64,000 nt of DNA from Salinibacter ruber DSM 13855 (GTDB lineage Bacteria; Bacteroidota; Rhodothermia; Rhodothermales; Salinibacteraceae), in contig NC_007677.1 of NCBI RefSeq assembly GCF_000013045.1, forward strand, positions 992,001-1,056,000, in the 5' to 3' direction. Position 1 is the first letter of the stretch. Each line of letters starts with the position of its first letter. This document shows, in pieces, positions 2,617-18,139 of this stretch. Position numbers and translations under genes: made by a program. Below the pieces are notes generated by a model, which was not told the DNA's origin, searched no databases, and was given only the letters and a program-made list of their open reading frames with translations.

Positions 2617-5511
2617 TCACGGAATGGAGCTGCCGGGCCCTCCCCCGCCGGCCACGCTGCTCGCCGTGTTGCGGAGGCGGTTTCCGAAGCCGCCCAGGGG
2701 GCCGCCCCGGCCCGAGTTTGGAATCTGGAGCCGGAGCAACTGGGACAGCTGCCCGCTCTTGACCTGGAGGCTGAAGCTGTACGACTGGCGCGCCCCGAAG
2801 GGAACCCAACTGAAAGACATCACCCAACACCGGCAGCGCCCGATGTCCCGGTTGAGGTTGATGCTCGTGGTGGCCAGCTCGTTCTGAACAAAATCGTAGC
2901 CCGTGCGGCCTTCCAGGGACCATCGTGGCGTTACGTCGAAGCTGAACCGGGTGTTGAGTGTTGTGGTCTGGCCCTCAATCTGCTTCCGCGGCTTGCGGAA
3001 GCTGTAGTTGAAGTCAAAACTCAGCGTCCAGGGAATATCCGTGCCGAGGTAGCCCTGCTGGGAACGCGTCCCAGACGCCCGCCCTCCTTGTTGCGCCCCG
3101 GAGCCCCCCGACGAGCGGCCTTGCTCGGGGCGCTGTTGCCCGGGGCGGCCTGTGCCCCCCCCTGCGCCCGACGGTATGCCGGGCCGGGTGCCGACCCCGC
3201 TGCCCCCGCCGCCGCCCTCGAACGAACTGCTGAGGTTGAGGCTAAAGCGTGTGAGCCGGACCGGCGTGAGGGGGCTTTCCGAAAACATATAACGGTCGAC
3301 GCGTCGGAGGCGGCGCCCGTCGCCGTCCCCAGTAGGGCGGAGTGCGTAGGGGGAGAAGGTCATGGACGACCGGACGCTAAAGTCGCGGATCGAGGTGCGG
3401 GCCCGGAGGCCAATGTCACTGAGTTTGAAGGCATCGGCCGTGAAGTTGTAGGAGGTATCCAGGTCGAAGTCCAGCAGCTTAATCGTCTCCTCGTCCGTCT
3501 CCCCGGTCGAGTCGACGCGTACCCGTTTCGTTTCGAGCTCGTTGTCGAGCCGGAAGCTTAGGGTGCGCTGCTCGTTGCTCCCGCGCACTCGGTTTCCGTT
3601 GAGAATGTCGTACCGGACCGGGTCGCCCTCGTCGTTGAGCACAGGGTCTCCGTTCGCGTAGCGGAGCGGGCGCGTCCGTCCCCAGAAGGGGGCGTTGAAG
3701 TTGGGACTGTAGCTGAACGAGAGGGAGGGCGAGACCCGGTGGCGGAGGCCCTGGAAGGGGCCGACCCGGATTGGGAAGAGGCCGTACAGCTCCGTGTTGG
3801 CCGAGATGCCCGTCGAGAAGTCCCGCCGGGCGTAGAAGCCCTGGACCCGCCGTTCCTCGGTTGTACGGGTGGTGTCCTCCGCGGTCGTGTCGCGGTCAAC
3901 GACCCGGCGGAGGGTGCTGATGCGCCAGTCCGAGTTGTACCGAAAATTGGGGCTGAGGCTGAGGTTGTAGCGGTTGACCCGGAAAGAGGCGCTCACCGGG
4001 ATCTGGTGCGTCGCGCTGAAGTCGAACTGCTCGTCGTCGCCGGTGGCGGTCCGATACTTCTCCCGGTCCACGAGTGCCTCGTACCAGGCGATGTCGGCGA
4101 CCCGGTCCGCCTCCAGGGAGTCGCCCTGCTCGCGGAGTTGCTCGACGTCCCGCGGGGAGAAGGAGTAGCTGTTGTCGACCGACAGGTCGTAGGAGGTCGT
4201 GATCTTCTCGAACCACCGGTCGTCGCCCACCGCCTGCTCCACCTCGAAGGGCTTAAACGAGCGCTGCGAGAAACTCAGGCTGGGAAGGGTCATGGACACC
4301 TCCCCGCTTTGAAGCTGCTGCCGCTGGTTGGCGCTGAGGTTCAGGTTTTTGCCGCTTCCGGGCCAGCTTTTGCTGTAGCGCAGGTTCGACGAAATCTCCT
4401 GGCTGACGGCGTCGTCGTAGTTGTTGCTGTTGCGGCGTGCGAAGTCCGTCGAGGTGGCCAGGTTGATGTCGCCGCGGATGGATGCGGTGGGGGAGAGGTC
4501 CTGGCTGTGTTGCCACTGGAGCTGCCCCCGGTGTCGGTTGGTGAAGTCGGGGTCCTCCTCCTCCCCAATTTGGGTGCGCCGGTAGGTGAGGTCCACGCTC
4601 CCGTCGTAGTTGTATCGCTTGCTGTACCGGAATATGGGGTTAATCTCGAAGCTGCCCTTCGACCAGACGCTGGCCTGGAGCTGTAGGTCCGTGTAGGCGT
4701 TCATCGCGAAGTACCAGCCCCAGTTGCGGAGGAAGAGGCCCTTCTCCCGGTCTTGGCCGTAGTTCGGCGCCAGGGGGCCGCTCCGGCGGCCCGACACGTT
4801 GGGCAAAAACCCGAACGGGAGCCACAGGGGGGTGGGGATGTCGAACAGGTACAGGTGAATGGGGCCGGTGTAGACCCATTCCCCGTCGACCTTCATCTGG
4901 TTGGAGCGCAGCGAGTAGGAGGGGGTCTCGCCGGGGGGGCAGTCACAGGTCGTGTACCTGCCCTCCTGCACAAACAGGGTGCTGTCCTCGAACGCCTTTA
5001 CGGCATCGCCCTGCACGTAGCCGTCCTGTTGCTGGGTGCGGGCCGTCACGACCCGGCCCCGTTTGGTGCGGAGGCTGTAGGAGAGGGTCTCTCCGGTGAA
5101 CGACTGGCCGCCGCCCTGTTGCCCCCCGCCCCGCTCGAACGTCGGGCGGGTTTGTGCGGTGTCGGAGGGGGAGCCGAACGCTTCCAGGACGCTCGTTTTG
5201 AGATTCATCTCGATGGTGCCGGCCTTCAGGGTTGCGCCCTGGTACGACATCTGCGCCTGGCCGTGGAGGGTCCCGTGGTCCGCCGAGTCCGGAGGGGTAA
5301 CGATGACCAGCGAGTCCGACGCCGCGAACTCCACGCCGGCGGCGTCGGCGTTCGGCGCCCCCGATGCGGACGGTTGCTGAGACGGGCGGGCCGAGTCGGG
5401 GATGGCGCGGCGGTCCTGGGCGGCGCCCGGAGGGGCCAGGAGGGCGAACACGAGTAGGGCGCCGAGCCCAACGGTCAATCGGTCCGGTCGGGGGGAGCGA
5501 AGCACAGTCAC
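2617..5511 (-). CDS. lptD: LptD-like outer-membrane lipopolysaccharide-assembly protein
   Basis: About 964 residues. A signal peptide (arginine-rich start, hydrophobic LTVGLGALLVFALLA, cleavage near PGAAQD) leads into an OstA/LptA-like N-domain (SDSLVIVTPP..., LHGQAQMSYQGATLKAGTIEMN). A long beta-barrel follows, with the family block LWLPFGFLPNVSGRRSGPLAPN. This is the Bacteroidota LptD form, which inserts LPS in the outer leaflet. The only cysteines of the mature protein are two CxC pairs, TCDCP near residue 190 and GRCRCW near the C-terminus. A Gly/Gln-rich linker of about 50 residues precedes the last barrel part. The frame is open further upstream into the ROK gene; I chose the GTG at 5511 because it gives a compact signal peptide. 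An ATG at 5616 is the alternative and would overlap the ROK gene by 23 bases. Confidence 0.85.
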   Translation of the reverse strand: MTVLRSPRPDRLTVGLGALLVFALLAPPGAAQDRRAIPDSARPSQQPSASGAPNADAAGVEFAASDSLVIVTPPDSADHGTLHGQAQMSYQGATLKAGTIEMNLKTSVLEAFGSPSDTAQTRPTFERGGGQQGGGQSFTGETLSYSLRTKRGRVVTARTQQQDGYVQGDAVKAFEDSTLFVQEGRYTTCDCPPGETPSYSLRSNQMKVDGEWVYTGPIHLYLFDIPTPLWLPFGFLPNVSGRRSGPLAPNYGQDREKGLFLRNWGWYFAMNAYTDLQLQASVWSKGSFEINPIFRYSKRYNYDGSVDLTYRRTQIGEEEDPDFTNRHRGQLQWQHSQDLSPTASIRGDINLATSTDFARRNSNNYDDAVSQEISSNLRYSKSWPGSGKNLNLSANQRQQLQSGEVSMTLPSLSFSQRSFKPFEVEQAVGDDRWFEKITTSYDLSVDNSYSFSPRDVEQLREQGDSLEADRVADIAWYEALVDREKYRTATGDDEQFDFSATHQIPVSASFRVNRYNLSLSPNFRYNSDWRISTLRRVVDRDTTAEDTTRTTEERRVQGFYARRDFSTGISANTELYGLFPIRVGPFQGLRHRVSPSLSFSYSPNFNAPFWGRTRPLRYANGDPVLNDEGDPVRYDILNGNRVRGSNEQRTLSFRLDNELETKRVRVDSTGETDEETIKLLDFDLDTSYNFTADAFKLSDIGLRARTSIRDFSVRSSMTFSPYALRPTGDGDGRRLRRVDRYMFSESPLTPVRLTRFSLNLSSSFEGGGGGSGVGTRPGIPSGAGGGTGRPGQQRPEQGRSSGGSGAQQGGRASGTRSQQGYLGTDIPWTLSFDFNYSFRKPRKQIEGQTTTLNTRFSFDVTPRWSLEGRTGYDFVQNELATTSINLNRDIGRCRCWVMSFSWVPFGARQSYSFSLQVKSGQLSQLLRLQIPNSGRGGPLGGFGNRLRNTASSVAGGGGPGSSIP

Positions 5512-5593
5512 CAGGCGGTGGGATAGGCACGAACCGTCCCGCCCCGGGCCCCGTGCGCAGATCGCGTGTGGCGGCGGATGGGCGGGCCGACGA

Positions 5594-6577
5594 CTATCGG
5601 GTTCCAACCTGGGCATCCTTGCCTTCAAAGGCGAGGCGGGCCGCCCCGAGAAGACTGGCCTCGTTCCCGAGGTCTTCCCGGTGAATTTGGAGGTCGTCCC
5701 GAAGGCCCGGCGTGACGAAGCGGGGGAGGACGTCGCGGGCAGGATCGAGGATATAGTCTCCGGCCGCAGAAACGCCCCCGCCCACCACAATGGTTCGAAT
5801 GTCCAGAAGATTTACGGCGGAGCCGAGCACGCACCCGAGCTTGTGGCCGGCCCAGGCCAGCATGGCCTGCGCAAACTCGTCGCCCTGCGTGGCCGCGTCG
5901 TACAGCGTGCGGGGCGACATCTGCTCCAGATCGCCCTCCACGAGGTCCCGGACGGTGCTGTCGGGGTAGTTGACGATCCGGTCGCGGGCGTGACGGGTCA
6001 GGAATCTCTGGCCGAGGTAGCCTTCGATGGCCCCGCCCACGCCCGTATTGGCGAACGGCCCTTCGTAGTCGACCGTCATGTGTCCAATCTCGCCGGCCCC
6101 GCCCGTGCTACCCCGAAAGATTTTGTTCTGGTATATGATGCCCCCGCCCACGCCGGTGCCAAGGGTGACCATGATAAAAGAGTCGACGTGCCGGCCGGCC
6201 CCGTGGAAGGCGGATCCGAGGGCGGCCACGTTCGCGTCGTTCTCCACGATGATGGGGAGGGACCGGCCGAGCCGCGACTGAAGGGATGCGCGCAGGTTGA
6301 CGGATTCCCAGTCGTCGATATTGGGCGGGTGGGATACCGTTGTGCGCTCCCAGTTCACGGCGCCGGGGGCCCCAATCCCAACGCCCATCACGGCATCCGA
6401 CGGGGCGAGATCGATCAGGTCCGCGACGAGGCCCGTGATCTGGGACGTGACGTGCTCGGGCCCCTTCCGGGCCTCCGTGGGACGTTGGGTTTGTTCGAGC
6501 AGGCCGTCCTCGCGGGCCACGAGGGCGGCCTTCAGGTTCGTCCCGCCAATGTCAACCCCAATGGCGTACGAACTCAT
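5594..6577 (-). CDS. ROK-family sugar kinase (glucokinase-like)
   Basis: 327 residues. The N-terminal phosphate-binding loop GVDIGGTNLKAALV, the catalytic-base segment ENDANVAALGSAFHGAG and the ATP-site TLGTGVGGGII are intact, so it should phosphorylate a hexose, probably glucose, feeding glycolysis alongside enolase in the same gene string. The usual ROK zinc motif CxCGxxGCxE is replaced by FANTGVGGAIE after GHMTV: all three cysteines are gone while the histidine stays. It lies between ftsB (upstream, 84 bases away) and lptD. Family certain; sugar specificity inferred from the glucokinase-like pattern. Confidence 0.88.
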   Translation of the reverse strand: MSSYAIGVDIGGTNLKAALVAREDGLLEQTQRPTEARKGPEHVTSQITGLVADLIDLAPSDAVMGVGIGAPGAVNWERTTVSHPPNIDDWESVNLRASLQSRLGRSLPIIVENDANVAALGSAFHGAGRHVDSFIMVTLGTGVGGGIIYQNKIFRGSTGGAGEIGHMTVDYEGPFANTGVGGAIEGYLGQRFLTRHARDRIVNYPDSTVRDLVEGDLEQMSPRTLYDAATQGDEFAQAMLAWAGHKLGCVLGSAVNLLDIRTIVVGGGVSAAGDYILDPARDVLPRFVTPGLRDDLQIHREDLGNEASLLGAARLAFEGKDAQVGTR

Positions 6578-6661: not shown

Positions 6662-6958
6662 TCATTCGGCGGGCTCGACGCGGTAGATGGTTTCGCCGGG
6701 TCGTTTCATGCCGTACTCCTCACGGGCGATCCGTTCGACGAGGCTATCCGACAGGGGGCGATCGAGCTGAGAACGAAGGCGTTCAATTTCCGCGCGGAGG
6801 TCGGCGTTCTCCCGAGCGGTCGCCTCCAGTTCCTGGTGCCAGCGGTATCGCTGCCAGAGGCTGTGGCTGTCGAAGAACGCAACCCAGACCAGCACACCGC
6901 CCAGCAGAAGGCCGAGTCCCCACCGCACGTGGCGACCGGAGAGCGTAGAGTCGGGCAT
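6662..6958 (-). CDS. ftsB: FtsB/DivIC-family septum formation initiator
   Basis: 98 residues with a short cytoplasmic head, one transmembrane helix (WGLGLLLGGVLVWVAFF) and a periplasmic coiled coil (WHQELEATARENADLRAEIERLRSQL). It ends in the family signature ERIAREEYGMKRPGETIYRV. FtsB/DivIC proteins bridge FtsL and FtsQ in the divisome. The gene starts 15 bases after enolase ends, the eno-ftsB order seen in many bacteria, so the two are probably cotranscribed. Confidence 0.9.
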   Translation of the reverse strand: MPDSTLSGRHVRWGLGLLLGGVLVWVAFFDSHSLWQRYRWHQELEATARENADLRAEIERLRSQLDRPLSDSLVERIAREEYGMKRPGETIYRVEPAE

Positions 6959-6973
6959 GGTGGACGGGGCCGA

Positions 6974-8347
<1,374 letters not shown>

Positions 8348-8523: not shown

Positions 8524-9879
8524 TCACCCGGAGGAAGGAGCCGACCGGACGGAGGTCGACTCGCCGATCCAGGAGTAGCAGCCGTAGTCGATGGTAAACG
8601 ACGCGCCGCTCTCCCAATCCTCCCGGTAGAAGATGTCTTCCTTGGTCGGAAACACCTTTCGGTAAGTTCGAATCTTGCTGTCCGCGACCGAGGAGAGTGA
8701 AGAGTCGACTTCCTTGGCCTGCCGGTACTTGTCCACGGCGGCCCAGTACACGGCCTTGTCGTTCCGGGCCATTTCGCCTCCGCTGCACTGGTTCACGGCA
8801 CGCGCGTACAGGTCCCCGATGGCAATGTACGCCCGTCCAAAGCTGTCCTTCATGTCGATGGCCTTCTGGAAGGCCTGGCGGGCCTGGGCGAGCTGCTTCA
8901 TCTTCTGGTAGGCCGTGCCCCGGTTGAAGTGATCCTCGGCCTTGAGCTCGGCGCCCTGCTTCTTGGCCCGCTTGTACGCCCGAAGTGCAGCCTCCGGGCG
9001 GCCGTCCTCGAGACGCATCTGTGCAATCTCCCGGACCGTCTCGGCCGACGGTTCCATCTTGATGAGGCGCTTCGAAAGCTCCGAGGCCTTCTTGATGTTG
9101 CCCTGCTGGTTGTACGCGTCGAAGAGCTCCGTGAGCAACTGGGTGCTGTCCGGGCTCTGCTCCACCTGCTTCTCCAAATACGCGATCTGGGCCTGCGGGT
9201 TTTTGCCGAAGATGTCCTCACGGACCGAGCTGATCATCCCGGCCACCTCCTCGTCGTCGCCCCGCTTCGACTCGACCGTGTTGGCGAAGTCGAGGGCCTT
9301 TTGCAGGTCGTTGTTCTCGAGGTGCGACTGCAGCACCTGCTGAATGTAGTAGGGGTCCAGCTCCTTCGGGGCCATCTCAAAGGCCCGTCGGTAGTGGGCC
9401 GTCGGGGTCTCAAGCCCCTCCACACCGTCCGGGAGCGAGCCCTGATGCTTTTCGAGGAACCGGCCTTTGCGGCGCTCCCACTTGTACGGCGTGTACTCCA
9501 GGCCGTGCTTCTCAAGGTTTTCCGAGGCGGACGCCAGGTAGGTCGCCGCGGTGTCCAGGTATGCCTTCCGGACGTCCTCCTTCGTGGCCTGCTCGGCGAG
9601 CCCCTCGTAGAGACTGATCACGCGGCGGTAGTTGTCGTCGTCCCCGTCGGGGGTGCCGGGGGCATTTTCGAGTATCCAGAGCAGATCGCTCCGCGCGCTT
9701 TCGAAGTTATCGTTCTTGTAATTCTCGTAGTAGAGGCTGTAGTGCATCAGCTTCTCCCGCTTGCTCGGCTCGCTGTCCTGAGCGGAGGCCGGCGGAACCG
9801 CCACGAGGAAGGCGAGCCCTGCGCAGAGGGCACCGGCGACGAGAGACTGAAACCGGAGGAGGGGGGCAGATTGAGGCAT
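8524..9879 (-). CDS. Exported tetratricopeptide-repeat protein
   Basis: 451 residues. A signal peptide (SLVAGALCAGLAFLVAVPPASAQD) precedes about 400 residues of helical repeats; recognisable TPR units include DHFNRGTAYQKMKQLAQARQAFQKAIDMKDSFGRAYIAIGDLYA-like spacing around residues 315-360. The C-terminal region holds CYSWIGESTS. TPR proteins of this sort in Bacteroidota are periplasmic scaffolds, often in gliding, secretion or cell-wall complexes, but no partner is evident here. The gene has its own terminator and lies 133 bases from the next gene, so it is probably monocistronic. Family firm, role unknown. Confidence 0.8.
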   Translation of the reverse strand: MPQSAPLLRFQSLVAGALCAGLAFLVAVPPASAQDSEPSKREKLMHYSLYYENYKNDNFESARSDLLWILENAPGTPDGDDDNYRRVISLYEGLAEQATKEDVRKAYLDTAATYLASASENLEKHGLEYTPYKWERRKGRFLEKHQGSLPDGVEGLETPTAHYRRAFEMAPKELDPYYIQQVLQSHLENNDLQKALDFANTVESKRGDDEEVAGMISSVREDIFGKNPQAQIAYLEKQVEQSPDSTQLLTELFDAYNQQGNIKKASELSKRLIKMEPSAETVREIAQMRLEDGRPEAALRAYKRAKKQGAELKAEDHFNRGTAYQKMKQLAQARQAFQKAIDMKDSFGRAYIAIGDLYARAVNQCSGGEMARNDKAVYWAAVDKYRQAKEVDSSLSSVADSKIRTYRKVFPTKEDIFYREDWESGASFTIDYGCYSWIGESTSVRSAPSSG

Positions 9880-10012: not shown

Positions 10013-11398
10013 CTACCGGAGCTTGCGCCGCTGGAACCACCGTTCGCCGAAGTTCACGTGAAGGGAGACCCCGAAGAACCGGTCGCGGACGAGGGAGTTG
10101 GTGGTCGTCCCTCGCGTTCCGGCAGTTGTATTCAGGTCAATTCGCGTGCCAGAGAGAGAGGTGGGGAGGCTGATGCCCGCGGTGAGGGCAAATTCGTAGA
10201 GGGTCGTCTCCTGGTCCGGGCGCACGTACATCCGCTCCGCGTATCCCCCGAAGCGGTAGGCCGCCTGGGCAAAGTACCCGGCCAGCTGATCGTCGCCGGC
10301 GGGCACCACCTCGGCTCCGGTGGAGAGGCGCCATCGATCCGCGAGGGTGCCCGGGCCGCCGGCCGGAAAGCGGGACGGGACGGTTTCGGAGGCGCCGGTG
10401 GAGAAGTCGCTCGAAAAGGTGCTCCACGGCTCGAAGGCCCCGTCGAGGACAACCGTCCATCGGGCATTGGGCTGGTAGGACAGCCCCAGGCGGCCCTTCC
10501 AGGGCAGCGTGACGTCCCCCCGCTCGGTGGACAGGGTGTCGCGGGCAAGGTCCTCGTCGAGGGTTCGGTACTGTTCGCCCGACAAGTTTGCGGGAAGGGT
10601 CACGGAGGCCCCGATGGAGAAGGCATCGTCCTCGGCGAATACATCGGCGAGGGCGAGGTGGCCGCCGAGCGTGCTGGTCAGTCCGGAGAGCTGCACGCCA
10701 TCGGAGACGATGGTGTTGCGGAGCTGGGGGGCTGCCCACGTCGTGCGCCGCCGACGCTCGAGGGTGCCGAACAGGAGGTCGGCGGTGGCCCCGACGCTCA
10801 GCATGTCGTTGACCCGGTATCCCAGCCCGCCCCGCAACCGATGAAGGCCGCCGGATCCGGAGAAGGTGGTCTCGTATCTCGCCTCTGCGTCCTGACGAGG
10901 GCCAATTGACTCCTGTCCCGTGCGGGTGGCGCTGTAGTTCGAGCGGGAATATGGCTGAAAGGAGATGCCGACGCCCAGAGAGCGCTCGTAGAGCGGGAAG
11001 TTGAACTGGAGGGCCTGCACGTTGCCGGAACTGAGGCGCCCGGAGTTGCCCTGGTCGTCCTCCACGCTGGTGGAGCGGTAGGCGGCGCTTCCGGACAGGC
11101 GGGTGAACACCTGGTCGCTCCAGAGGGCCGGATTGGCGTCGGGGTTGTAGTTGAGGGACCGAAGCGCGTAGCCGCCGCCCCCCATCGCGTCGCTCTGAGA
11201 CGAGGAGAACTCAAGCAGACTCCCCATCCCGAACCGGGAGTAGATCGTGCCCTCGCCGTTGGACTGGGCCTGTGCGGGGGAGGGGGCGGCCAAGAGAATG
11301 ACGGCGGCGCAAGTCCCCAGGAAGAGCAAGCGCGAAAAGCCTGGCATTCGCACGAGACCGTTGCGCAGTGTGCAGAGAAGGTGCCGAACGGCAATCAT
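10013..11398 (-). CDS. Outer-membrane beta-barrel protein (FadL/OMPP1-like layout)
   Basis: 461 residues. A signal peptide (LLFLGTCAAVILLAAPSPAQAQ) is followed by SRFGMGSLL, GGGGYALRSLNYNPDANPALWSD and alternating amphipathic strands. The pattern 'SRFG.G....AMGG....NPA' is that of Bacteroidota OmpP1/FadL-type barrels. Its ATG starts 3 bases after the stop of the upstream lipoprotein gene, so the two are translationally coupled; an internal ATG at 11347 also fits the signal peptide. It is the last gene of the locus glycogen-synthase-like, lipoprotein, barrel. Cargo is unknown. Confidence 0.75.
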   Translation of the reverse strand: MIAVRHLLCTLRNGLVRMPGFSRLLFLGTCAAVILLAAPSPAQAQSNGEGTIYSRFGMGSLLEFSSSQSDAMGGGGYALRSLNYNPDANPALWSDQVFTRLSGSAAYRSTSVEDDQGNSGRLSSGNVQALQFNFPLYERSLGVGISFQPYSRSNYSATRTGQESIGPRQDAEARYETTFSGSGGLHRLRGGLGYRVNDMLSVGATADLLFGTLERRRRTTWAAPQLRNTIVSDGVQLSGLTSTLGGHLALADVFAEDDAFSIGASVTLPANLSGEQYRTLDEDLARDTLSTERGDVTLPWKGRLGLSYQPNARWTVVLDGAFEPWSTFSSDFSTGASETVPSRFPAGGPGTLADRWRLSTGAEVVPAGDDQLAGYFAQAAYRFGGYAERMYVRPDQETTLYEFALTAGISLPTSLSGTRIDLNTTAGTRGTTTNSLVRDRFFGVSLHVNFGERWFQRRKLR

Positions 11399-11401
11399 CG
11401 T

Positions 11402-12796
11402 CTAGAGCGGCGTTACGGTCAGAGTGGCGCGGGGCGGACCCGGCTCGGTCCCGTCGACCGGGACGAGAACGGGCAGTGTGGTGGGCAGGCCGGGCCGAAC
11501 GGTGGCGGCCTCGTTGACGGCTGTGTTCTCCCGGTCGGCGATGTGGACCCGAAATGTCGTGAAGACCGGAGACTGGTCGTCGCGGACGCGCTGGAACGAC
11601 TGCCGAAAGGTGGGGCGTGCTACATCGTCCGGAACGAGGGCCGACGCGGGGGCTGCCGACGGAACGAGCGGGAGGACGCAGGCCTCGTTCGCATCGGAAA
11701 GCGTCACGGACCCCACCACGGGGCAGGAGGGGGTCCCCGAAGATCGAGTGGCGATGATGCGGTAGCCCTGCGGCTGGGGCCGCTCAAAGCCGGACGGGGT
11801 CTCCAGCGCGCTCGTGTCGTTCGGTACAAAGATCTCAGCCCGATTCAGCGGAAGAGTTCGTCCGGAGTCAGCGGGCAAACTGTCAATTTCTGTCTCGTTC
11901 ACAAACTCCTTCTCCCCGTAAGCCCATTCCATCGCTAGCCCCTTCCCGATGCCGCCCTGCATCAGCCGGTAGCCGTCCGGTGGGTCGCCGGCGCCCGTCC
12001 GCTCGATATGGGTGAAGGTTTTCAGGCTCGGGTAGTCGGCGGTGGTGGTGTCATTGCTTGATGAAACCGTCCGGAGGCGCAGAGCGGCGGTCGACGAGGA
12101 GAAGCCCACGACGGCCTCGCTGTTCGGCGCGACGATCTTGAAGCCGAAGAACGCGTCCTCAAAATCACTCCCCGTGCTGCGCAACGTCCCTATGTTGTCG
12201 ATGACCCAGGATGCCTTGAGCCGAATGGTGACCGGCGAGTCGGACGGGTTGATCTGGGCCCCGTTTACGGACACCGGGGAGGAGGCGGCGTCGAAGCTCG
12301 CCGTCGCCCGGGCGGAGTCCATGTCGGCCTCCGACGTCAGATCGTACACCTCTACGTCCATCGTCCCGGACGAATGCCCGTGTAGGTAGTCTGTCGTCAG
12401 GCGCAGCTCGGCGGTGAGGGCATCCGGGCTTGCATTTTGAAGGTCTTCAGGGAGGTCGTCTCGCCCCGCAAAGTCGACATATCCGTCCGTCGTCACAACG
12501 CCTGTGCCCGGCGTCGGGTCGTCGACGCTCCCAACCAGGAATCGCCACGCACTTTGGTTCTGAGACTGGGCCGGAGGGCGCCCCTGAGCACTATCCCTCG
12601 TGATCCCTGTGATGGGGGCCACCGTCGTGTCGCGGACGTCAGGCGTCACGTCGAGCGTGGAAGGATTGCCGCCCTGCAGCCCAGAGCCCACCCCCAGCCC
12701 GACGTCCGACGAGTCGCTGCAGGCGGTGAGCGAGACGAGCAAAGCGCCCCCAACGAGAAGTCCAGGGAGCCAGGAAGACCTCATAGACATCGGCAT
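11402..12796 (-). CDS. DUF4270-like lipoprotein
   Basis: About 464 residues. A lipoprotein signal (LPGLLVGGALLVSLTAC, lipobox SLTAC followed by SDSSDVGLG) anchors it in a membrane. Beta-rich segments include TAELRLTTDYL, AQINPSDSPVTIRLKASWVID and NRAEIFVPND. DUF4270 lipoproteins of Bacteroidota sit beside a short glycogen-synthase-like gene, exactly as here, which is part of the reason for this call. ATGs at 12796, 12790 and 12784 all fit the signal; the frame also extends to 12859. Function of the family is not established. The following gene is an outer-membrane barrel, coupled by a 3-base gap. Confidence 0.6.
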   Translation of the reverse strand: MPMSMRSSWLPGLLVGGALLVSLTACSDSSDVGLGVGSGLQGGNPSTLDVTPDVRDTTVAPITGITRDSAQGRPPAQSQNQSAWRFLVGSVDDPTPGTGVVTTDGYVDFAGRDDLPEDLQNASPDALTAELRLTTDYLHGHSSGTMDVEVYDLTSEADMDSARATASFDAASSPVSVNGAQINPSDSPVTIRLKASWVIDNIGTLRSTGSDFEDAFFGFKIVAPNSEAVVGFSSSTAALRLRTVSSSNDTTTADYPSLKTFTHIERTGAGDPPDGYRLMQGGIGKGLAMEWAYGEKEFVNETEIDSLPADSGRTLPLNRAEIFVPNDTSALETPSGFERPQPQGYRIIATRSSGTPSCPVVGSVTLSDANEACVLPLVPSAAPASALVPDDVARPTFRQSFQRVRDDQSPVFTTFRVHIADRENTAVNEAATVRPGLPTTLPVLVPVDGTEPGPPRATLTVTPL

Positions 12797-12988
12797 TGCG
12801 AGCGGCGAACGCCGGTTCGGTACAAAAGGCGAGGAGGGTCCCCCGAATGCACGACGCATTGACGCAGGACATCCGAGCGGGTGCGGTGCCGTGGGGGCCC
12901 GACGGGTCTACGCCAACGGCACGGGCCCATCCCGGAATCGGGTCCCTGAATGCCACCTGGAAGCAGGGTGTTTCTCGGCGGGCGAACC

Positions 12989-13780
12989 CTACGCAGGGAC
13001 TTCACCGAGCATTTGATCGTACAGCGCCACCGTTTGCTCGGTGCGCGGCTGGGGATCGGCCTGAAATCTCGACACGTCCTCGGCCTGTGCGCCATTGGCC
13101 GACGTCCCGTTCGGGGGGAGAATTGTGGCGTCCGCGTGGGTGCGGCCGACCTCCGAGAGCGTCGCCCCGGCATTGCCGTCGATCGGAAGGTTCATCGTGT
13201 CGGCAAACGAGGCCTCAAGGGTCGTTGCCGGCGCCTGTCCCCCGGGCGTGAAGACCGACTTCGTGGCGCCCAGCAGGTCGTCGTCCGCGTAGGTGGTGGA
13301 GAGAAGGGTCGGAAGGAGGCCACTGATCCACCCGAAGCCGTGGATCAGGTCCGGGCCCCAGCGCAGCTCCCGAAGCGTCTCCAGCACGGAGCGGTTGAAA
13401 AACAGAGCCCGGTCCGCGTTGTCGTCGAACGCGCTGCCGTCGCCATCGGTTGCGCGGCCCGACCGGCCGAAGTATCCCTCATGATCCATGAAGTAGACCT
13501 GCAGCTGCACGTCCGGCACCGAGGCCACCTTCACGGAAACCGACTCGGTGTTCGCCCCCATCGGGACGTCTGTGTCCGAGAGCCGGATGACCTCGTGGAG
13601 GCTGTGCTTTCGCTCGTTGATGTCCCCGTAGCAGGGCATCATGATTCGTACTTCGAAGTCCCCGGCTTCTTGTACCTGTTCGGGGAGCGACCGGGTGAGG
13701 GTGGCGAGTGGAGACTGCTCGGTGAACGGTGCAAGTGCTTCGGCGACGTACAGAAGACGATAGGAGGAGGCCATGTGCAT
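12989..13780 (-). CDS. Short glycogen/starch-synthase-like protein (GT5 N-domain only)
   Basis: 263 residues. It covers only the N-terminal GT5 domain of glycogen synthase: LLYVAEALAPF, VRIMMPCYGDINERKHSLHEVIRLS, VQLQVYFMDHEGYF and ELRWGPDLIHGFGWISGLLP. The C-terminal GT1 half is absent, and the ADP-glucose-binding KxGGL motif is replaced by EQSPL. This matches a conserved short family found next to DUF4270 lipoprotein genes (and often panC/panD) in Bacteroidota. It is therefore unlikely to be an active synthase, although databases often name it so. The lipoprotein gene follows on the same strand. ATG at 13774 is an alternative start. Confidence 0.75.
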   Translation of the reverse strand: MHMASSYRLLYVAEALAPFTEQSPLATLTRSLPEQVQEAGDFEVRIMMPCYGDINERKHSLHEVIRLSDTDVPMGANTESVSVKVASVPDVQLQVYFMDHEGYFGRSGRATDGDGSAFDDNADRALFFNRSVLETLRELRWGPDLIHGFGWISGLLPTLLSTTYADDDLLGATKSVFTPGGQAPATTLEASFADTMNLPIDGNAGATLSEVGRTHADATILPPNGTSANGAQAEDVSRFQADPQPRTEQTVALYDQMLGEVPA

Positions 13781-15493: not shown

Positions 15494-15868
15494 ATGGCCC
15501 ACGACACGACCGAAATATACGTACGGGACCTTTCCGAAGACGCCGCTGCCGACTGGCTGCAGGGCGTCTTTGAGGGCCTCGAACAGGTGCAAGAGGCCCC
15601 GATCGTGACCTACGAGGGGCGGTACGACGGAGAGGCTGTTCCGGTACAGATTACCGAGCAGGTAAAAAACGGGCCGTACACCAGCATCTGGTTCAACGCG
15701 CCCCGGCTGCCGTGGGAGAGTATCCGGGAGTGTGCCCGGGCCGCGCACGACGCACTCGGGGCCGAGGTGCTCTGCTACCTGAATCAACCCAAGGAGCCGT
15801 GGCGCATGCTGCGGATGGAAGCGGGCGAGATGGAGCGGGTCGACGAACGCACCCTGGAAGACTTTTAA
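15494..15868 (+). CDS. Conserved hypothetical acidic protein
   Basis: 124 residues, no signal peptide or membrane segment, strongly acidic (many D/E, C-terminus VDERTLEDF). Its regular strand/helix pattern (TEIYVRDL, AADWLQGVFEGLEQ, VPVQITEQVKNGPYTSIWFN, WESIRECARAAHDALGAEVLCYL) suggests a compact alpha/beta fold. I do not recognise the family. It starts 69 bases after the ABC ATPase gene on the same strand. Its TAA stop overlaps the stop codon of the convergent gene in the palindrome TTAA. Confidence 0.65.
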   Translation: MAHDTTEIYVRDLSEDAAADWLQGVFEGLEQVQEAPIVTYEGRYDGEAVPVQITEQVKNGPYTSIWFNAPRLPWESIRECARAAHDALGAEVLCYLNQPKEPWRMLRMEAGEMERVDERTLEDF

Positions 15869-16725
15869 TGCGGACCGGCGGCCTCGTGCGCCTCCAGGGG
15901 GCGTACCGTGACTGCACCGGGCGGGGCGTCGAGGGCAAGCGTGGGCCCGCCGCCATTGAAGGCGCGGCCCTCGTCGTTGGTTGAAGGGGGGCCAAAGGCC
16001 TCGTCAACGACGAGGCCGGTACTATCCAGGTCCGTCTGGAGCGTAAATCCGGCCTCCGCGGGCAGAAAGAAGCGCAGCGTGCCCGAATGGGTCTCCGCCG
16101 TGCTCGGCGCGGAAAGGGTCTCGAAGGCGACGGACGCGTCCCCGGAAAAGACATCGAGCGCGATCCCTCCCCGGATGCCGGTCGCCGTGATCCGTCCGGA
16201 GTGGGCGCCCAGGTCGAGCATCCCGTCGACCGAGTCGACGGCCACGGTGCCCGCGTGGGTGTCGATCTCCACGTCGCCCTCTACCCCAGAGACATCGATG
16301 GTGGAGGTGTAGTCCTTGATCTCGAGCGTTGCCGTCTCTGGCATCGTGACGTGGTAGTGGGCGGCCAGGTTGCCGCCCGCGCTCGGAGAAATGCGGAGGA
16401 GGCCCGGAATGCGAAGTGACCAGGAGGCTCCGTCCTGGTCGATCAAGAAGCCCTGATCGGTCCGGCGGACGATGGCGTTGGACGCCACCATGGAGTCTTT
16501 GGCGCTCACCGGGGCGATCCTGTAGGCAAGCCGGTCCCGCTCCCACGTCGTGACGGTGATGGTGCCCTCGTGGGTGTCGCTAAGGTCAACAGCCCCCTCG
16601 GGGGCGAGACGGACCGTGTCCTCCACGGTGTCGGGGGGAGCGGGCTGTCCAGCAGCCCCTGTAGCAACGCCAAGGCTGAGCACAAGCCCGATGGCAGCGT
16701 TCCACAAAGCGGTGGGGTCGGACAT
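15865..16725 (-). CDS. Exported DUF4097-type beta-helix protein (paralogue 2)
   Basis: 286 residues. A signal peptide (LWNAAIGLVLSLGVATGAAGQP) precedes a region of short repeated strands such as DTHEGTITVTTWERD, VSGVEGDVEIDTHAGTVAVDSVDGMLDLGAHSGRI, the layout of DUF4097 (right-handed beta-helix, 'head GIN-like') proteins. Expected location is periplasm or cell surface; biochemical role unknown. The upstream gene at 16825 is a clear paralogue: both begin the mature part with VEDTV-LA-(E/D)GAV and share EGTITVTTWERDR. Probably cotranscribed. Confidence 0.72.
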   Translation of the reverse strand: MSDPTALWNAAIGLVLSLGVATGAAGQPAPPDTVEDTVRLAPEGAVDLSDTHEGTITVTTWERDRLAYRIAPVSAKDSMVASNAIVRRTDQGFLIDQDGASWSLRIPGLLRISPSAGGNLAAHYHVTMPETATLEIKDYTSTIDVSGVEGDVEIDTHAGTVAVDSVDGMLDLGAHSGRITATGIRGGIALDVFSGDASVAFETLSAPSTAETHSGTLRFFLPAEAGFTLQTDLDSTGLVVDEAFGPPSTNDEGRAFNGGGPTLALDAPPGAVTVRPLEAHEAAGPH

Positions 16726-16824: not shown

Positions 16825-17799
16825 CTACCGGGTGCGGAGGGCGACGTCTCCGTCGTCAGCCTCGAGGTACAGTTCAGGGCCGCCCCCATTGATGTCGCCC
16901 CGGTAGTTGGGCTCGTCCTCGTCCCCAATCCGGATCGCGGAGAGGTCGAAGTCGGAGCGCAGGTCCACGTCGTCGTCGAAGTCGGTGTTGAGGTCGATCC
17001 CCGAAGTGGGGGGGAGGGTGAGGGTCGCATCGCCGTCGTGGGTACTGACGTGTACGTCGTCGGTCACCGTTGCAAACGACGCGGAGACCGTCCCGTCGTG
17101 CGCGTCGAACCGAAGGCTGCCCTCCAGTTCCTCGACGGAAAGGGTTCCCTCGTGAGTGTCCACCGACAGGCGGCCCGCGATGTTGCGGAGGTCCATGCGC
17201 CCCTCGTGGGTGTCGAGCGTCACGTCGCCGTCCTGGTTCGTGATGGAGAGCGAACTCTCGTGGCTGTCGATGGTGACCGCGCCGCGCTGGTCGGTGACGG
17301 TGACTGGTCCCTCGTGCGTGTCGATGCGGAGCGCCCCGGCCAGGCCGGTCACCTCGATGGCCGATTCGTGGTCGTCGAGGCGGAGGGCGGCGGACCGTGG
17401 CATTCTGATTGTGTAGTGGACCGCCGGGATGTCGATGCCGCCCCACCGGAACCCGTCTTCGTCGAAGCCGAAGACCGTCGATTCGTCATCCCCGTCCTCG
17501 TGGTCCGTCGCGAGTCGGAGCCGCTCGTCGTTGGTGCGAGCTTGGATCGTCACCTTCTCGGCGTCGGGGTCCTCATCGGTCGGCATGATCTCGGCTTCGT
17601 ACCGCACGCGGTCCCGCTCCCAGGTGGTGACGGTGATGGTGCCCTCGTGGGTGTCGACGGCGACCGCCCCGTCGGCGGCAAGGGGCACCGTATCCTCCAC
17701 GGTGCGGGCCGGATCCTGCGCGGCGACGGAGGGGGCGACGCCCAGGCCGAGGACAGCGGCGGCGAGCAGGGCACAGAGCGAGGGGACGGATCGAGGCAT
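16825..17799 (-). CDS. Exported DUF4097-type beta-helix protein (paralogue 1)
   Basis: 324 residues from ATG 17799. The signal peptide is SLCALLAAAVLGLGVAPSVAAQD. The body consists of regular rungs of about 17-20 residues built around 'DTHEG' or 'DSHES' (DTHEGPVTVTDQRGAVTI, DSHESSLSITNQDGDVTL, DTHEGRMDLRNIAGRLSV), as in a beta-solenoid; at least six such rungs are visible. The C-terminus has acidic turns (DLNTDFDDDVDLRSDFDL), possible Ca2+ ligands or simply halophilic bias. The frame is open upstream to 18060, but the signal peptide fixes the start. Function unknown. Confidence 0.75.
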   Translation of the reverse strand: MPRSVPSLCALLAAAVLGLGVAPSVAAQDPARTVEDTVPLAADGAVAVDTHEGTITVTTWERDRVRYEAEIMPTDEDPDAEKVTIQARTNDERLRLATDHEDGDDESTVFGFDEDGFRWGGIDIPAVHYTIRMPRSAALRLDDHESAIEVTGLAGALRIDTHEGPVTVTDQRGAVTIDSHESSLSITNQDGDVTLDTHEGRMDLRNIAGRLSVDTHEGTLSVEELEGSLRFDAHDGTVSASFATVTDDVHVSTHDGDATLTLPPTSGIDLNTDFDDDVDLRSDFDLSAIRIGDEDEPNYRGDINGGGPELYLEADDGDVALRTR

Positions 17800-18139
17800 G
17801 AGGGACGAAGTGACTGCGCAACAGACGATGGAAGGGCCCGCGGGAACCCGCAGGGGCATCCCATCAAACGAGAACACTCGCCAATCCGTTACACTCGTCG
17901 CCGAAATAAATCCGCAGCGAGCCGGAGCGCGGCCGTGTTTTCGGGTCCCGGCCGTCCCCACGAGAGGGAATAGCGTTCGCCCCGACCGCGCGTCTGCGCA
18001 AGCGATGCCCTGCCGGGCTGCCCACGGGCCCTTTCCGTGCGAGGGACCAGCCGCGTTCACCGGTCAATGCCCACCTGCCGCCCGAAAGGAGGGGGACGGG
18101 GCATCTCGTTCCTGAAGCGACCGCGGACTGGGCCGCGAA
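17800..18139. other. Intergenic region, 340 bp
   Basis: Between lipA and the DUF4097-type pair, all on the minus strand. No gene is supported. It should contain the promoter for the pair; an AT-richer patch (17880-17915) is the likeliest place but no consensus boxes stand out. A short imperfect inverted repeat (CGCGG/CCGCG) follows the lipA stop codon without a T-run. Confidence 0.4.

Follow-up and report, generated by a model that had tools for sequence, protein, structure and literature searches.

A probable non-catalytic descendant of glycogen synthase upstream of the bamH-bamG gene pair in Salinibacter ruber

BamG and BamH were published in October 2025 as subunits of the β-barrel assembly machinery (BAM) of Bacteroidota, where BamG docks on the back of BamA and BamH, anchored on BamG, arches over the folding site, both serving the assembly of outer-membrane proteins and of lipoprotein-barrel complexes (PMC12611786, PMC12578637). 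The essential core as described for B. thetaiotaomicron and P. gingivalis consists of BamA, BamD and BamG, with BamH-K being non-essential in vitro (PMC12578637); the subunits are conserved in Bacteroidota, and Chlorobiota is reported as the one phylum of the Fibrobacteres-Chlorobi-Bacteroidetes (FCB) group without BamG and BamH (PMC12611786). Here, three adjoining genes of Salinibacter ruber DSM 13855 were compared with this machinery and with the glycogen synthases of glycosyltransferase family 5 (GT5). They are located within a 64,000-nt stretch of NC_007677.1 (992,001-1,056,000; ‘the window', to whose numbering all positions refer), the whole genome comprising 3,587,328 bases in two contigs. 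The set had been delimited as 10013-13780 in the initial annotation, and three open reading frames (ORFs), all on the − strand and encoding in order a short GT5-like protein (P0001), a lipoprotein (P0002) and a barrel (P0003), match these limits (Table 1). The locus probably comprises bamH and bamG, both encoding subunits of the Bacteroidota BAM complex, and upstream of them the gene for a non-catalytic protein that descends from glycogen synthase. Of the earlier description as an envelope system of unknown function, the envelope part stood; the function can be named for two of the three genes, BamG and BamH being already known as BAM subunits, and the S. ruber pair would work as published for Bacteroidota.

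The lipoprotein and the barrel as BamH and BamG

The lipoprotein is identified as BamH by sequence profile, predicted fold and gene order. It had been called DUF4270-like, a label that holds for its family but not for the protein by itself: Pfam DUF4270 (PF14092) gave no match to P0002 alone at E≤1, yet the profile of the lipoprotein family matched a solved DUF4270 chain of a BAM complex (9hjm_G) at 1.7e-13, and hhalign of this family against a Bacteroidia DUF4270 alignment returned a probability of 95.5 (E 1.5e-8). The Pfam model matches ten genomes of the same order, in nine of which the gene adjoins the GT5-like gene, and the lipobox C47 is invariant in all 19 Rhodothermales lipoproteins. 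With the predicted structure of P0002 (pLDDT 80.4, pTM 0.77), Foldseek ranked the BamH chains of P. gingivalis, F. johnsoniae and B. thetaiotaomicron first to third (E 2.5e-15, 4.2e-14 and 3.9e-13), the next match being at 7.5e-4 with a probability of 0.10. The VIA Z of the model against the solved BamH chains was 20.9, 18.9 and 17.7, followed by 9.4 for 8wab, a carbohydrate-binding module that is named as the closest fold to BamH (PMC12611786).

The barrel is likewise identified as BamG by sequence profile and gene order. Against the NCBIfam BamG model NF053685, P0003 scored 240 bits (E 4.5e-71; equivalog cut-off 250), and same-position genes of some relatives exceeded the cut-off (for example, 266.9, 259.3, 256.7 and 256.4 bits in genomes G030, G282, G279 and G033, respectively). 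A profile of 19 Rhodothermales barrels matched the solved BamG chains 9hiv_F, 9hjm_F and 9n2d_B at 3.1e-56, 5.6e-45 and 2.1e-41, and TodX at only 3.3e-6. Just past the signal peptide, residues Q45, G50, Y53, S54, G57 and G59 are invariant in all 19, as expected for a BamG N-terminus that is described as conserved (PMC12578637). It is very improbable that the barrel is instead an ordinary FadL-type transporter with the lipoprotein as its partner, neither being a BAM part: Pfam assigned a weak Toluene_X match alone to P0003 (20.5 bits) and the BamG cut-off was missed, but the profile matches solved BamG with E-values 35-50 orders of magnitude below that for TodX, and the barrel gene comes directly after a gene whose product has the BamH fold.

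As BamG and BamH, the two S. ruber proteins share with their published counterparts (Fjoh_1412/Fjoh_0823 and Bt4367/Bt4306, respectively, as BamG/BamH) the same profiles, the predicted BamH fold, the lipobox Cys and the conserved BamG N-terminal tail, and genes of the BamA and SprA families are present in the S. ruber genome too. They differ in that bamH and bamG are adjacent in S. ruber, whereas most of the Bacteroidia loci compared have their best bamG at a distance from bamH, and in that the Pfam DUF4270 model alone does not recognise the divergent S. ruber BamH. The S. ruber genome also contains a second BamG-profile match, weaker than the first. Second bamH-bamG pairs (BamH2/BamG2-like) occur elsewhere in the same genomes as the first, for example at L132:7629-10258 (G075) and G077:C11:637133-639598.

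Composition, neighbourhood and descent of the short protein

The first protein had been taken for a GT5 N-domain lacking the rest, and this was borne out: Pfam Glyco_transf_5 matched P0001 over the N-half alone (profile 2-164 of 239, E 2.9e-31), the starch-synthase model PRK14098 (489 positions) was matched at 4-177 by residues 5-178, with 154 bits against a cut-off of 754, and NCBIfam TIGR02095 (82.2 bits) did not reach its cut-off of 328.45. The substitution of EQSPL for KxGGL was also confirmed, TEQSPLA being found in place of the synthase KTGGLAD, and G150 and G180 occupy the positions of D150 and H180, which we take to be the known cleft residues of E. coli GlgA. KxGG was found in none of 72 distinct short N-domains, as compared with 25 of 30 from full-length synthases of the lineage that accompanies the bam genes (bam-lineage) and 10 of 10 canonical ones; both C-domain motif windows were gaps in all 83 short rows and in both mid-length rows. 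Because the C-domain is lost together with D150 and H180, P0001 is not a synthase, and an active glycogen synthase was rejected based on motifs, C-domain loss and model scores. The missing KxGGL, previously offered as the sign of a non-synthase, is weak evidence when taken alone, since a full-length synthase of family f26 (loci L129 and L130) is also without the loop.

The P0001 model is a single domain (pLDDT 89.5, pTM 0.90). In the best rows of the structural comparison (VIA Z 24-27), 234 residues were aligned with the E. coli synthase (Z 24.0; end pairs 7 and 258 against 1 and 477) and 244 with starch synthase IV (Z 27.5; end pairs 5 and 261 against 23 and 516), giving a layout of an N-domain at about residues 5-228 plus a C-terminal helix at 243-258 that matches the last helix of the synthases. 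Short forms finish in a ..LYxxL helix like the full-length last helix, with Tyr254 kept in at least 90% of 41. Thus the short protein, at 263 aa against about 490 aa for a GT5 synthase, apparently consists of the synthase N-domain and the very last helix, with the donor domain between them missing. Homology and fold of the N-domain are common to P0001 and GlgA/GT5 of the PRK14098 type, whereas the donor domain, the KTGGL loop, D150 and H180 are absent from P0001 and a patch of bam-lineage residues (below) is present. No signal peptide was seen by eye, and the protein is presumably cytosolic.

The adjacency of short protein and lipoprotein, said in the initial annotation to recur across Bacteroidota, was upheld by the neighbourhood survey. 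Of 60 relatives, 59 carry the short form (all 43 of the good ones), and 245 of 247 Bacteroidota genomes have either a short or a full-length version, both misses being in family f26. A DUF4270 match was obtained in 81 of the 247, of which 79 also have a GT5 place among the matches listed (in the other two, G075 and G148, the synthase next to bamH is full-length). The GT5-like gene immediately precedes the DUF4270 gene, on the same strand, in 74 of the 79, a fraction conditional on the 81 genomes that Pfam DUF4270 finds. Among 62 same-class genomes, 38 have a BamG place among the matches listed, and in all 38 the GT5-like gene precedes BamG on the same strand by 1,300-1,732 nt; one genome known to deviate (G038) is among the remaining 24. 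Directly upstream of bamH, the short gene was also found in a Bacteroides-type genome, G270 (match of its DUF4270 gene to solved BtBamH, 5.9e-199), and in G121, with an F. johnsoniae-type BamH match of 1.5e-142.

Of 20 fetched Rhodothermales loci, 19 read GT5-(BamH or BamH-like ORF)-BamG, followed by a TPR gene in 18 and enolase in 17 of those (L050 has enolase but no TPR match, and in L035 no enolase was present within the 5.9 kb seen). In 30 Bacteroidia loci (L080-L109, the 30 best DUF4270 matches and an uneven sample mostly from one family), glmS comes after bamH in 27, while panC is divergent and upstream of the short gene in 29. bamH is thus common to three gene rows: synthase-(HAD)-bamH-bamG in most deep loci, GT5-bamH-bamG-TPR-eno in Rhodothermales and panC/GT5-bamH-glmS in Bacteroidia.

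In deep Bacteroidota lineages, full-length synthases (mostly 490-560 aa) are located upstream of bamH-bamG. Twenty-two deep loci were chosen to represent families without a listed GT5 place, three of which have short forms; in the remaining 19, the GT5-family gene and BamG are co-directional throughout, with a BamH profile match between them in 11 and a BamH-sized ORF in the other 8. Further deep loci are weaker: L120-L122 and L131 have bamG, L123, L125 and L127 have bamH only, and L124, L126, L128, L129 and L130 have neither. Among named genomes (best 80 synthase loci, one without a usable synthase match), BamH was matched downstream in 15, with BamG too in 13 of those; the 15 come from Ignavibacteria, a Kapaibacterium (BamH only), Bacteroidetes metagenome-assembled genomes and one such Calditrichia genome. 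With membership read from record titles and three titles without a phylum counted as others, FCB accounts for 25 of the best 80 loci and for all 15 BamH-positive ones, against 0 of 55 others. A HAD phosphatase is often found between synthase and bamH, and for the four tested the GmhB model PRK08942 gave 125-171 bits (cut-off 178), while all four passed the histidinol-phosphatase domain model TIGR01656.

In a quick tree of 112 N-domains (125 in the input, 13 duplicates dropped), 71 of the 72 short forms were found as one clade (SH-aLRT 100) within the bam-lineage full-length set, with canonical GlgA being separate (SH-aLRT 97). That set of 30 rows includes L124, L126, L128, L129 and L130, which have no recognised bamH or bamG alongside. 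L193 and L122 (G064:C20) are probably one locus, and L010 was not used in set A1 (wrong strand). Outside the main short clade is a 288-aa short form beside HAD-bamH-bamG (L157:5069-5935; G220, family f45; one of the 19 deep loci), which keeps R57, H62, R66 and K84 and carries KTSAI at the loop and a Tyr where the cleft His would be; the bam-lineage synthase was thus probably truncated twice. In family f26, which appears to be Chlorobiaceae-like, full-length genes (L129:5196-6665 and L130:4654-6123) are the sole GT5-profile match in both genomes, with RISAL/RTSAL for KTGGL and the cleft D and H kept. Both loci retain synthase-HAD, a radical-SAM/HemN-like gene following the HAD gene of L129, with bamH and bamG absent, so that Chlorobiota may have lost the pair from exactly this place.

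Judged by the sequences and gene orders, the short protein is derived from a synthase of full length, intact for the most part, that occupied the same place in the gene order. The suspicion that it was mis-named as glycogen synthesis is therefore half right: the name synthase is wrong, but the link is historical rather than absent. The comparison also suggests that bamH and bamG were ancestrally one gene pair.

Conserved residues and possible roles

The block INERKHSLHEVIRLS (residues 54-68), singled out earlier as strongly conserved, is so far beyond chance: it holds the bam-lineage-specific R57, H62 and R66, each 100% conserved in 73 distinct short sequences, and R57, H62, R66 and Q94 are kept at 99-100% in short forms. 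Of six catalytic-type positions (K21, G23, G24, D27, D150 and H180), the mean number kept was 0.40 in short forms (n=73), 5.39 in bam-lineage full-length synthases (n=44), 6.0 in canonical ones (n=10), 5.85 in non-FCB ones (n=54) and 5.60 in other FCB synthases (n=10). For six lineage positions (E56, R57, H62, R66, K84 and Q94, picked with the short forms in view), the corresponding means were 5.88, 5.27, 0.10, 0.44 and 1.40, respectively. Eight columns picked by comparing full-length synthases with outsiders only were retained in short forms at a mean of 0.89 (six at at least 0.96, the others at 0.45 and 0.70), as compared with 0.48 for 31 general synthase columns, 12 of which were under 0.2.

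As the lineage residues were kept while the active site was lost, the non-catalytic role is probably the older of the two events. The site is basic and polar, arose when the enzyme next to bamH was still full-length and persisted after catalysis had gone, which points to binding as its role, and the patch of R57, H62, R66, K84 and Q94 would bind an anionic ligand or partner. The short protein is under purifying selection: in each of 12 comparisons with relatives of the same genus, the N-domain had a lower dN/dS (0.056-0.376) than the tail. These values come from simple Nei-Gojobori counting on GC-rich genes, and three pairs were high, with N-domain values of 0.30-0.38. That such a relic has mostly stayed beside bamH and bamG across the phylum suggests that a second job was gained.

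Concerning this second job, it is tentatively proposed that the short protein links the supply of envelope sugar precursors to the production of outer-membrane-assembly proteins. A sensor or regulator of precursor supply is preferred because, among the neighbours that vary between rows, most are envelope genes (GmhB-like phosphatase, glmS, lptD and bamG; panC and eno are not). As no signal peptide is apparent, the protein would stay in the cytosol, unable to touch the outer-membrane subunits, which makes direct contact unlikely. One possible, if doubtful, course of events is that the working synthase of the phylum's ancestor already had a second, non-catalytic binding site and shared an operon with bamH-bamG and a GmhB-like phosphatase. 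The catalytic half would then have been dropped in Bacteroidia and Rhodothermia, and the remaining short protein would detect a nucleotide sugar or sugar phosphate and adjust production of the BAM canopy to precursor supply (GmhB-like phosphatase, GlmS). RapZ, the E. coli sugar-phosphate sensor controlling GlmS, may serve as a model of action, with the likeness confined to a cytosolic sugar sensor acting on envelope precursor supply and no homology claimed; glmS following bamH in 27 of the 30 Bacteroidia loci belongs to this comparison.

Several observations weigh against the reading of the locus as a bam pair with a functionally linked synthase descendant. P0003 falls 10 bits under the BamG cut-off and P0002 by itself has no DUF4270 match. 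The Rhodothermales BamH profile matches just 13 of the 34 genomes given to it, and the widened profile used for the named loci was trained on 68 profile-found plus 11 position-picked ORFs, so that BamH in deep lineages rests in part on position. Branch support in the tree is SH-aLRT, with several inner branches at 81-91. The sequences are related by descent, so that conservation of the patch is not independent for each sequence. In family f26, a full-length member persists without adjoining bamH or bamG. In five genomes (G038, G195, G061, G065 and G278), the short gene is not beside the DUF4270 gene found: in G038 the GT5-like gene stands alone (L049) with bamH-bamG elsewhere in the genome, and in the other four it retains panC as a neighbour (in G195 also glmS), so the short gene and bamH can separate. 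Finally, no export signal is visible by eye in the short protein; no ligand, partner or phenotype was found for it, and nothing on essentiality of the short gene was found in the literature searched.

About as likely as the envelope-precursor sensor, and thus plausible though short of probable, is that the short protein has a cytosolic job of its own that is unrelated to BAM, its place next to bamH being due to an old shared promoter or gene row. Besides the missing export signal and the separation from the DUF4270 gene found in 5 of 79 genomes, the row of panC, GT5-like gene and glmS in G195 survives without bamH, and panC is as steady a neighbour as bamH in the Bacteroidia loci (29 of 30). 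The gap between GT5 and DUF4270 matches, mostly 126-519 nt (72 of 74), makes separate transcription possible, and the 100 bp upstream of fjoh_0824, presumably the GT5-like gene as its number is next to that of BamH (fjoh_0823), served as a promoter source in F. johnsoniae (PMC12611786). On the other hand, bamH is the single partner common to the three different gene rows. Improbable is a split GT-B transferase, of which Alg13/Alg14 is an example, with the short protein as one half working with a separate donor-binding protein: it does have an acceptor-side domain with a high-confidence predicted fold, but its own side of the cleft has lost K21, G23, D150 and H180, and retention of the C-terminal helix suggests that the single domain is closed. 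A functionless, decaying leftover, as the loss of active site and C-domain might imply, is hardly credible given the near-universal presence, the low dN/dS of the N-domain and the invariance of R57, H62 and R66, and a decaying pseudogene was rejected.

Gene row, glycogen genes and naming

The three genes belong to a conserved row that is closed by an LptD-family gene (Table 1); in most fetched Rhodothermales loci, the lptD-family gene, bamH and bamG share one neighbourhood. The initial annotation had described lipoprotein and barrel as coupled by 3 bases, which is true of the longest ORFs (gap at 11399-11401); tight coupling is not sure, since both longest ORFs, with signal peptides judged by eye, probably begin too early. 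A scan for sigma-70 promoters found 0 sites, and one for terminators found 5 against 3.3 expected. Two adjoining DUF4097 (Toastrack) genes, perhaps a duplication, are located on the − strand at 15865-16725 and 16825-18060 of the window.

Table 1. Features of the locus and its conserved neighbours, in window positions
Feature	Positions	Strand	Basis or remark
Short GT5-like protein P0001, 263 aa	12989..13780	−	GT5 profile matches, predicted structure
Codons 54-68 of P0001, INERKHSLHEVIRLS	13577..13621	−	Coordinates computed from ORF start; contains R57, H62, R66
bamH (P0002), surface lipoprotein of Bacteroidota BAM complex, DUF4270-type	11402..12859	−	Lipobox Cys47 (longest-ORF numbering); likely start near 12796
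bamG (P0003), FadL-type barrel of BAM complex	10013..11398	−	Profiles; likely start near 11347
TPR protein, conserved, downstream of bamG	8524..9879	−	TPR match in 18 of 20 fetched Rhodothermales loci
Enolase, conserved neighbour	6974..8263	−	Present in 18 of 20 fetched Rhodothermales loci
DivIC/FtsB-like protein, conserved neighbour	6662..6958	−	Rhodothermales locus comparison
ROK-family sugar kinase, conserved neighbour	5594..6577	−	Rhodothermales locus comparison
LptD-family protein, closes conserved gene row	2617..5790	−	ORF start overextended

The glycogen genes of S. ruber are elsewhere, glgC being followed by a GT4-type glycogen/maltose-1-phosphate synthase (G000:C1:2386586-2388500, L002; TIGR02149, 497 bits), so that the locus of the short protein is not needed for glycogen synthesis. 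In the order, glgC is over the cut-off in 51 of 60 genomes (58 of 60 at E≤0.001), and in 12 of the 52 Rhodothermales with a strong glgC it lies 3.3-5.5 kb upstream of the short gene, divergent in 11; with glgC this common and this near, the idea of a locus without glycogen history was dropped. In L040, L043, L044, L045, L046 and L048, a gene of 1,140-1,298 aa is upstream of the short gene, that of L044, when tested, being DUF4175-like.

The synthase name of the short protein has misled print. BT_4307 is cited as a potential glycogen synthase, hinting at glycogen storage (PMC10797578), and is probably the short protein, since BamH is Bt4306 and the short gene of G270 is directly upstream of the BtBamH-like gene. 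BT_4307 is also among the proteins captured by a vitamin B12 probe (PMC8941943), which may be background. A GlgA-GT5 fragment in Bacteroidetes, very probably of the same family, is the subject of one sentence in a 2024 review (PMC11046441); the passages on it give neither gene context nor residue analysis, and BamA is absent from the main text. No mention in print of a link between GT5 and BAM was found in the literature searched, supplements not covered, and the same holds for the association with bamH, the full-length ancestor at this position and the retained patch.

With this comparison, bamH and bamG of S. ruber are now identified, and a protein in almost every sampled Bacteroidia and Rhodothermia genome that is annotated as glycogen synthase is seen as a putative non-enzyme with a conserved site. 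If the tentative coupling of envelope precursor supply to BAM production were true, the phylum would control outer-membrane assembly through a retired metabolic enzyme, whose gene precedes that of a core subunit of an extracellular machine.

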